From an uncultured Ruminiclostridium sp. (GTDB lineage Bacteria > Bacillota > Clostridia > Oscillospirales > Ruminococcaceae), in assembly GCA_947630685.1 (NCBI GenBank), contig CANRII010000009.1, positions 1 to 39,627 on the forward strand: a stretch of DNA of 39,627 nucleotides, given 5' to 3'. The position numbers were made by a program, and so were the translations under genes. The notes below the pieces were generated by a model. That model was not told the DNA's origin. It saw only the letters and a program-made list of their open reading frames with translations, and made no database searches. Shown one piece after another: positions 31,085 to 32,605 of the stretch; position 1 is the first letter of the stretch, and each line of letters starts with the position of its first letter.

Positions 31085-31160
31085 GAGCCACTAGCTCAGG
31101 CGGCAGAGCACCTGCCTTTTAAGCAGGGTGTCCCGGGTTCGATTCCCGGGTGGCTCACCA
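31085..31160 (+). tRNA. tRNA-Lys (anticodon TTT), CCA encoded
   Basis: The cloverleaf is complete. The acceptor GAGCCAC pairs with GTGGCTC, the D-stem is GCTC/GAGC, and the anticodon stem CCTGC/GCAGG has loop CTTTTAA (anticodon TTT). The T-stem CCGGG/CCCGG has loop TTCGATT. Discriminator A is followed by the encoded CCA at 31158-31160. Confidence 0.98.
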
Positions 31161-31433: not shown

Positions 31434-31991
31434 TTAATCTCGTACAAGATATTGTGTAAGAACGATATCATTAACTGAATCTTTCGGACTCTTATAGGTA
31501 TTATCATACAAATGTCCCTGATTCTCCGGCAATGAATCTAATTTCTTTTTCAGAAATAACGCTCTATCTATCAAGTCCAAATCACCGCGTTTGCGGATGC
31601 GTCGTTCAATCTCCTCTGCCGCTGCTGTTAAAACAATGTAATAAAACTCAGCACAATACCGATGTGCCAACTCCTGAACACGCGGTAATTCTTCCTCGAT
31701 CACATAATCAATGATAACATCAAGCCCCTGTCTGAGCGCTCTGTCCGCCGTATTGATAATGCAGTCCCAATTAAATTGCAGTACATCTTTCCATTGCACC
31801 TGTTCAGACGTCTCTCCGCTAAAGAAGTAATCTCCTTTATCCTTTGGCTCTATAAATCCTCTGTGAAAATCATCGCCATGGATTATATAAACCGTTCTTC
31901 CGGACTGCTCGACAAGATATTTTCCATATGCGTCCGCAAATGTTGATTTTCCGCATCCACAGGCACCGGAGACAAAAATAAGTTTTGCCAT
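31434..31991 (-). CDS. Small P-loop kinase-like ATPase, probably acquired
   Basis: This 185-residue protein has a clear Walker A (SGACGCGKSTFADAYG, residues 8-23). It continues with the conserved pair HGDDFHRGF, a central IIDYVIEEELPRV and ERRIRKRGDLDLIDRALFLKKKL, where arginines could act as a lid. The build recalls small-molecule or nucleotide kinases of the zeta-toxin/chloramphenicol phosphotransferase group, but no substrate can be named. No antitoxin gene adjoins it. GGGAG lies 8 bases before the ATG. Its codons are visibly more A/T-ending than those of neighbours, and it sits between tRNA-Lys and a tRNA-like repeat element, which suggests horizontal acquisition. Confidence 0.82.
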   Translation of the reverse strand: MAKLIFVSGACGCGKSTFADAYGKYLVEQSGRTVYIIHGDDFHRGFIEPKDKGDYFFSGETSEQVQWKDVLQFNWDCIINTADRALRQGLDVIIDYVIEEELPRVQELAHRYCAEFYYIVLTAAAEEIERRIRKRGDLDLIDRALFLKKKLDSLPENQGHLYDNTYKSPKDSVNDIVLTQYLVRD

Positions 31992-32017: not shown

Positions 32018-32039
32018 GTATGTTTGCTCAATTACAGCA

Positions 32040-32318
32040 TAGGCATGCGGGAGTCGAACCCAAGTCGGTTTTTACGGGCATATTTCCGCCAATACTGCGT
32101 CAACCTCGCTCGACATACGCAAGTATGCCTTCGTTCGGTTTCCTTGTCTTGACGAAAATCTGCTCCGTAAAAACTGCTTTGCACCTCACGGCGAATGAAT
32201 TTGAGGTGATTTTTGTTTCTTGAGGCGCAGGCAGGCTGGCGCCTGTCAAGCCGAAAGGGACAAAAAGAGCCCAAAGGCATCGTCGTGAGGCGTCTCGGGT
32301 TCGATTCCCGCATGCCTA
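32040..32318. mobile_element. 279-bp structured element with 22-bp tRNA-3'-end-like terminal inverted repeats
   Basis: The ends 32040-32061 and 32297-32318 are inverted copies with one mismatch in 22. Each, read outward, looks like a tRNA T-arm plus acceptor strand (GGGTTCGA, then TCCCGCATGCC). Inside, GTTTTTACGG (32068-32077) can pair with CCGTAAAAAC (32165-32174). There are hairpins CATAC-GCAA-GTATG (32114-32127, a GNRA-type loop), CACCTCA/TGAGGTG (32182-32208) and AGGCGC/GCGCCT (32223-32244). It has no credible protein. No matching 5' tRNA half is present. It is best read as a MITE-like repeat or a structured RNA cassette, and the class is unknown to me. I see no clear target-site duplication. 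Confidence 0.6.
32296..32310 (+). repeat. 15-bp direct repeat shared with the tRNA-Lys T-arm
   Basis: CGGGTTCGATTCCCG occurs here and at 31134-31148 inside tRNA-Lys, bracketing the kinase gene. It may be an attachment-like repeat or simply the shared T-arm consensus. Confidence 0.4.
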
Positions 32319-32605
32319 ATTATATCATACAATTTCACATTTTGTCCAGCTATTCTTTTGCCAACGCCGCTGTATTCCTGTCACTAAACTTTATATGACT
32401 TGTTTGCAGATTTTTTACTTGCTGCTTGGTAACCGGGCAGCGAGCTAAGATTTTAACGATTTTACCGGTTTAATTATAGCATATCCTTTTATAACTTGTC
32501 CGGTTTTTACGGCGGCTTTCTCCTCAATATTTTCCCATTAAAAGCACTAAAGTTTTACTTTGAAATCGCTTGAAAAAATTTTTACAATAAATTGTTTTTA
32601 TCCTA
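32319..32605. other. AT-rich intergenic region, no gene seen
   Basis: I find no supported reading frame. It holds a hairpin at 32418-32443 (CTTGCTGC with GCAGCGAG, inner GG/CC) without a good T-run. It also holds a possible minus-strand extended -10 (TGCTATAAT read at 32473-32481) pointing towards the structured element and kinase gene, without a convincing -35. Confidence 0.5.

Follow-up and report, generated by a model that had tools for sequence, protein, structure and literature searches.

The window, i.e., the whole 39,627-nucleotide stretch of DNA analysed here from an uncultured Ruminiclostridium sp., holds at positions 32040-32318 a 279-bp mobile element that is very probably a non-autonomous, TA-duplicating DNA transposon (MITE) without genes of its own. 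Comparison of its copies reveals mobility, insertion into genes and duplication of a 2-bp target, mostly TA, while two opposed copies of a single conserved fold make up its interior, and this fold is common to other terminal-repeat families.

Organization of the element

The terminal inverted repeats (32040-32067 and 32291-32318, both given on the plus strand) are 28 nt long and 89% complementary; a 22-bp end repeat with one mismatch, described in an earlier note made from the sequence alone, corresponds to their outer 22 nt. The element ends read TA followed by GGCATGCGGGAGYCGAACCC. The two TA dinucleotides, at 32040-32041 and 32317-32318 (no strand assigned), were defined as target-site copies from the positions at which copies start and end and from empty sites. 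Within the left repeat, the inner GGGAGTCGAACCC is found again, slightly varied, in families with other tips, and the right repeat carries the T-arm-like CGGGTTCGATTCCCG.

The left arm (32068-32174, minus strand) is the conserved core module, matched by our covariance model at 32076-32164 with 96.9 bits, a score obtained on a training-set sequence. Its apical hairpin (32112-32129) reads GGCATAC TTGC GTATGTC on the minus strand. The GCAA tetraloop on a 5-bp stem noticed earlier (loop at 32119-32122) is present in both the sequence and the predicted fold and represents the plus-strand face of this hairpin. Likewise, the 10-bp pairing reported previously joins GTTTTTACGG (32068-32077) to CCGTAAAAAC (32165-32174), 87 nt apart, within the inner inverted repeat I2. 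The right arm (approximately 32184-32290) is a diverged copy of the module in the opposite orientation, matched by the same model on the plus strand at 32204-32273 (29.8 bits, E 1.7e-4) although it lies outside the training set. Its apical hairpin, CGCAGGCAGGCTGGCGCCTGTCAAG (32226-32250, plus strand), is common to foldback elements with unrelated ends.

The whole element is predicted to fold as a closed Y in which each arm forms one long hairpin, in agreement with the closed multi-branched structure proposed before. Folded as RNA, the plus strand reaches -144.6 kcal/mol, whereas 200 dinucleotide shuffles give -86.7 +/- 5.2 (z -11.1) and none of them folds as well; the corresponding z values are -9.8 for the minus-strand RNA and -7.8 for DNA. 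There is no transposase gene within the 279 bp. The 93-aa frame running through the element on the minus strand (32032-32313) has no Pfam match, and the insert lengths of other copies (267-279) keep no frame. At Rfam gathering scores, the window yields tRNA-Lys alone and nothing for the element.

Copies in the genus

The earlier note had named many copies with compensatory changes as support for a structured mobile element, and the sequence is indeed multi-copy, with pairs covarying beyond controls. Its own genome (G000) contains 37 matches, 11 of which cover at least 273 of the 279 positions; many shorter ones break off at contig ends. Two sister species hold 25 copies covering at least 251 positions (G030; five belong to a subfamily with other tips) and 26 copies covering at least 270 positions (G035), while G018 carries six near-full and four more internally deleted copies, and G009 one copy and one internally deleted copy. 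Among the 60 genomes searched, own genome included, 14 match at E <= 0.001, all within the genus of the window. Only these five contain the full element; the others share interior parts. Copies elsewhere stop at the same boundaries as 32040-32318, which are consequently the boundaries of the family. The alignment of copies (n=63) was built from retrieved loci and represents the G035 copies in part. Five young-looking copies of G030 share 97.8-99.3% mutual identity.

Columns 157-245 of alignment A2 display two right-arm haplotypes in which both stem strands switch together, and L104 looks mixed. Palindromic remnants of ~30-48 bp (L084 984-1032, and close to the TIR in L272 and L273) consist of the two ends joined, as though slippage had removed what lay between them, and L270 and L271 retain just ~45 bp of one end. 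Pairs of copies also occur on one contig, ~1.3 kb apart in G035:C33 (L096) and ~6 kb apart in G035:C50 (L112).

Insertion sites and target duplication

End dinucleotides were compared in 57 copies. TA is found at both ends in 36 and at one end in 14; four bear another matched pair (CA, CA, TG and TT), which fits a duplicated target, and three bear neither. Uninterrupted sites were available in 20 comparisons for 15 occupied copies, with TA in 14 of them and small adjoining gaps in several. In the best empty site (L109 against L280), 81 of 82 positions agree and a single TA is present. The copy at L112:1001 has CG as its left dinucleotide, yet TA occupies its empty counterparts, of which one lies in G000 and the other is a duplicate of the site on the same contig. 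A separate set of 10 comparisons with empty sites of relatives gave TA in two and no TA in eight. When both sets are taken with their identities, TA is present in all four comparisons at 94% or more but in only 4 of the 10 at 90-93%, which is fewer than expected from divergence alone. Dinucleotides besides TA may occasionally serve as targets. Based on the eight non-TA empty sites among those 10 and on the proportion of TA at 90-93%, we hold the MITE assignment slightly less firmly. That TA would be a fixed part of the element was also considered and rejected, given the four copies with matched non-TA pairs and the empty sites with one TA.

According to a crude ORF caller, 22 of the 57 copies lie within ORFs, 11 in each orientation and thus without bias. 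Reading frames are recovered when the flanks are brought together over a single dinucleotide, and in all seven joined proteins tested, chosen from these 22, a Pfam domain spans the junction (GNAT, maltose-type acetyltransferase, response regulator, MatE, DAHP synthase, NUDIX and HTH_3). The interrupted DAHP synthase has second places in some relatives. Between codirectional genes, the minus strand lies along transcription in 15 copies and the plus strand in four. Removal of the insert from interrupted genes at the RNA level found no support, and insert lengths (267-279) do not keep to multiples of three.

Conservation of the interior fold

Exact matching of the apical hairpin GCAGGCAGGCTNGCGCCTGYCAAG against a single genome from each species retrieved at least 115 stretches. 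Among the 80 hairpin matches listed, 78 are titled Ruminococcus, Ruminiclostridium, Oscillospiraceae, Ruminococcaceae, Clostridiales or Clostridia, the remaining two Bacteroides and Erysipelotrichaceae. Of the 67 occurrences with enough flank (L127-L206), 49 are enclosed by an outer inverted repeat of at least 11 nt within 230 nt, a few of which probably arise by chance. The ends surrounding the shared hairpin vary (ATACTAATCC, ATACTAAGTAGC, TTAAGGGCACCTC, TTAGGGTGACAGG, TAACCAACCGAG and others), and two builds recur: a ~158-bp rod with one hairpin and a ~280-bp two-arm Y like 32040-32318. A looser scan for the core was set aside as too permissive (180 matches, 33 in the reversed-sequence control).

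Covariation was assessed in 22 cores from several families, selected by eye for alignments A1 and A3 with L026 and the L144/L193/L197 type omitted, and in 45 whole copies. In the cores, 94.4% of cells are paired against 77.9% when shuffled, and 60 cells contain double changes against 17.5 when shuffled (0/500) and 27 in the best slid control; in the whole copies, 20 pairs contain double changes against 6.1 (0/500) and 8, respectively, bearing in mind that the shuffle test is inflated by relatedness and that the slid control, while keeping relatedness, favours the structure derived from the same sequences. In the apical stem, for example, one pair reads GC 12 / UA 10 and another GC 13 / AU 9, and the next stem exhibits CG, UA, AU and GC.

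Mismatches are also unevenly distributed. Across 20 representative families, taken from 33 good stems among 190 motif matches overall, G-T exceeds A-C by 62 to 18, up to ~20 of the 62 being one fixed wobble in the apical hairpin. Within the family, 63 cells are G-T versus 23 A-C over 73 mainly Watson-Crick pairs, a count that uses an RNAalifold-chosen structure, which favours G-U. The left-arm wobble (13 versus 6 cells) does not track the module's own strand. The interior fold looks to be under constraint, and the G-T excess, within these models of the structure, suggests selection on a single strand.

The covariance model built from the cores detected both arms, on opposite strands each time, in 10 of 13 two-arm elements (20 loci; E up to 0.002), and one arm only in L311, L315 and L335. 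At E <= 0.001, it matched 84 of 295 genomes and 47 of 148 genera of the order; since E-values are rough and only genomes of the order served as search set, some weak matches may be false. An exact 10-nt outer inverted repeat is present in 11 of the 27 distinct places inspected, with L310 and L331 counted as one. Of those lacking it, 11 were viewed; nine fold as foldbacks, as judged by eye, and L326 and L327 do not. In pMM35_01 of Vescimonas fastidiosa, an element with TACCATCGGTTGACAAGGGC ends, itself absent from the annotation table, sits between annotated genes and matches the model with both arms. L335 (MT837146.1), a record labelled as a phage from human faeces, contains a two-arm element from ~575 with a second hairpin inside the apical loop. 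Possibly, though we put this tentatively, the core is an unnamed structured module of the order that is carried by many transposon families with unrelated ends, the fold being kept while terminal repeats are exchanged; it would often travel as an opposed pair, so that a transcript of either strand presents one module.

Mobilization and possible roles of the fold

IS630 is the usual enzyme for TA targets. We propose that a TA-specific DDE transposase of the IS630/Tc1-mariner type would act in trans on the terminal repeats by cut and paste. No IS630 transposase (NF033545) was detected at E <= 0.001 in the contig-level assemblies G000, G030, G035 and G009; G018 gave a 22.8-bit match. An autonomous element with these ends was found neither among facing inverted repeats 0.5-6 kb apart in the retrieved loci, where the pairs found were IS630 elements with other ends, two neighbouring MITE copies or chance, nor at isolated ends (20 regions of G018, G030 and G035), nor in viral contigs searched by exact end patterns, nor among the matches listed, nearly all of G000 being outside that list. 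The helper transposase may have been lost, lie in contig gaps or belong to another family.

More tentatively, the fold would work as a single strand. Our first choice is that it acts as RNA within read-through transcripts, as the two opposed copies would provide one sense module whichever strand gets transcribed; a second choice would be an extruded DNA hairpin aiding transposition or replication of the element. Immediately adjoining the right end, the minus strand of 32319-32348 contains a promoter-like TGGACA-18-TATAAT with TG (11/12, a consensus match only). This candidate promoter would read through the element to the kinase-like gene at 31434-31991, of which the element may, judging from this arrangement, be the 5' leader.

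The strongest alternative is that the fold is kept for its role as DNA, with the mobilizing enzyme reading a cruciform or a hairpin in single-stranded form and the terminal repeats needing complementarity only. HUH and REP-associated transposases recognize hairpins. The presence of the apical hairpin in elements with unrelated terminal repeats agrees with such a role, and opposed modules would suit either DNA strand. However, TA duplication together with terminal repeats is the signature of a DDE rather than an HUH enzyme, and GGGAGCCGAACCC within the terminal repeat is shared by two genera and occurs in altered form in a third, so that the end sequence seems to matter too. We consider this explanation unlikely, though worth keeping in mind.

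Less probable still is an origin of the foldback as a by-product, in which palindromic duplication, together with recombination among copies, would keep the arms complementary without structural selection. The copies are related and seem to recombine, as the right-arm haplotypes indicate, and short palindromic remnants exist; yet covariation extends across families, one position showing four pair types, and the slid controls yield at most 27 double-change cells versus 60.

tRNA likeness of the ends

The ends had originally been compared to the 3' end of a tRNA, the 5' half being absent. That absence is borne out by ARAGORN, which finds only tRNA-Lys (31085-31160) in the window. The likeness itself stands for the T-arm, which is recognizable at both ends and equals tRNA-Lys over 15 nt at the right one, but not for the acceptor strand; there is no CCA either. 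This tRNA-Lys, whose T-arm matches the right end, sits ~0.9 kb from the element. At the T-arm position of A58, which is not known to vary in tRNAs, 32 of 57 copies have A and the other 25 have G, six of the 63 aligned rows (L074 and five of the other-tip subfamily) having been dropped.

The tips are variable as well. The G030 subfamily, with the same interior, starts with TAGACGTTGCGGAGTCGGACACAAG and ends with GTGTCCGACTCCGCAACGTCTA, while the tip is TAGCAGTA in another genus of the same family and TAAGGCGAG in another family of the order. GGGAGCCGAAC follows both foreign tips. What is shared is consequently a ~13-nt inner motif, the most T-arm-like form being one local variant. This inner motif is perhaps the binding site of the mobilizing protein. 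Another foldback family, seen in L015 and L027 near match 1501-1615, has ends TAGCTTGG..GGCGCGGACTTGAACCC with a T-loop-like TTCAA and no visible T-stem.

Below threshold, Rfam reported tmRNA at 11.8 bits (E 0.0095) and tRNA-Sec at 17 bits (E 1.2), each against a gathering score of 47, the former being taken as reflecting the T-arm likeness. An origin of the ends from tRNA was rejected on the basis of the tRNA search, Rfam, comparison with 24 distinct tRNA sequences of the retrieved loci and the genome's own tmRNA locus, and the likeness, as far as sequence comparison goes, looks like a coincidence. Of the idea of a MITE mobilized through tRNA-like ends, the MITE is upheld by the copies and TA sites, whereas the tRNA-like mobilization is not, the resemblance being confined to the T-arm and the tips varying.

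The element had further been suggested to be a tRNA-mimicking non-coding RNA whose ends would present a T-arm and acceptor to RNase P, RNase Z or the CCA enzyme. While the identity of CGGGTTCGATTCCCG with the T-arm of tRNA-Lys and the sub-threshold matches to tmRNA and tRNA-Sec would be in line with this, there is no acceptor stem or CCA, 25 of 57 copies carry G where A58 would be, the sister subfamily keeps the interior with an end GTGTCCGACTCCGCAACGTCTA, the ends of other families are unrelated, and the two ends pair with each other in the predicted fold, hiding the T-arm. The insertion sites, moreover, are ordinary sequence, some of it within protein genes, and we regard this interpretation as very improbable. 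Two decayed tRNA genes or a double scar of integration at tRNA genes, which the T-arm likeness at both ends could recall, have a negligible probability, given many copies with the same boundaries and insertion sites that are ordinary sequence, some in protein genes, the empty sites seen being plain sequence.

Relation to known repeat elements

A mobile, TA-duplicating MITE with a folded interior resembles several known systems. REP and REPIN elements, associated with RAYT transposases, are mobile hairpins carrying a conserved motif; they rely on an HUH transposase and are not known to duplicate TA. The present element shares with them the mobile hairpins with a conserved motif and differs by its TA duplication. 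It also differs from ERIC, RUP and Correia in having a conserved internal fold common to elements with unrelated terminal repeats, and in its ~280 bp and two arms.

In the parts of the source drawn on here, the bacterial MITEs ERIC, RUP and Correia/NEMIS are short and non-coding, with terminal inverted repeats, TA termini and target duplication; their transcripts are predicted as long stem-loops, and they also occur within genes (PMC2229807). The element possesses the features listed there for this class (PMC2229807). RUP is tied to IS630-Spn1, whereas no IS partner was found for this element; as a partner is described only for RUP in those parts of the source, an autonomous partner does not define the class (PMC2229807). 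Like the Caulobacter intergenic repeats (CIR) in the same excerpts, the element has two long arms and one conserved motif at the terminal loop (PMC2229807). However, that motif is a GANTC methylation site in CIR and a 25-nt hairpin here; CIR are set apart from elements closed by end-to-end pairing, as this one is, and were not found within genes, where this element does occur (all as given in the excerpts of PMC2229807). The pneumococcal RUP, BOX and SPRITE elements, as far as the available sections of PMC3049150 describe them, are similarly high-copy, mobile and folded, RUP and BOX having terminal repeats and target duplication; they differ in hosts and sequences, RUP being a simple 107-bp element and BOX being modular with modules of its own (PMC3049150). 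A search of the open-access literature found nothing on such elements in these bacteria.

Significance

In these genomes, the copies disrupt genes and also fall at contig ends. A MITE is usually tied by its terminal repeats to one transposase, its interior being free to drift. Here the interior fold outlives the ends, across 47 of 148 genera of the order according to the model, which raises the question of what selects it. If the fold acts as DNA, it would indicate a hairpin-reading enzyme; if it acts as RNA, it would represent a new class of structured RNA in abundant gut bacteria. Should the core indeed be passed between transposon families with its fold kept, it would amount to a mobile structural RNA (or DNA hairpin) selected in its own right.
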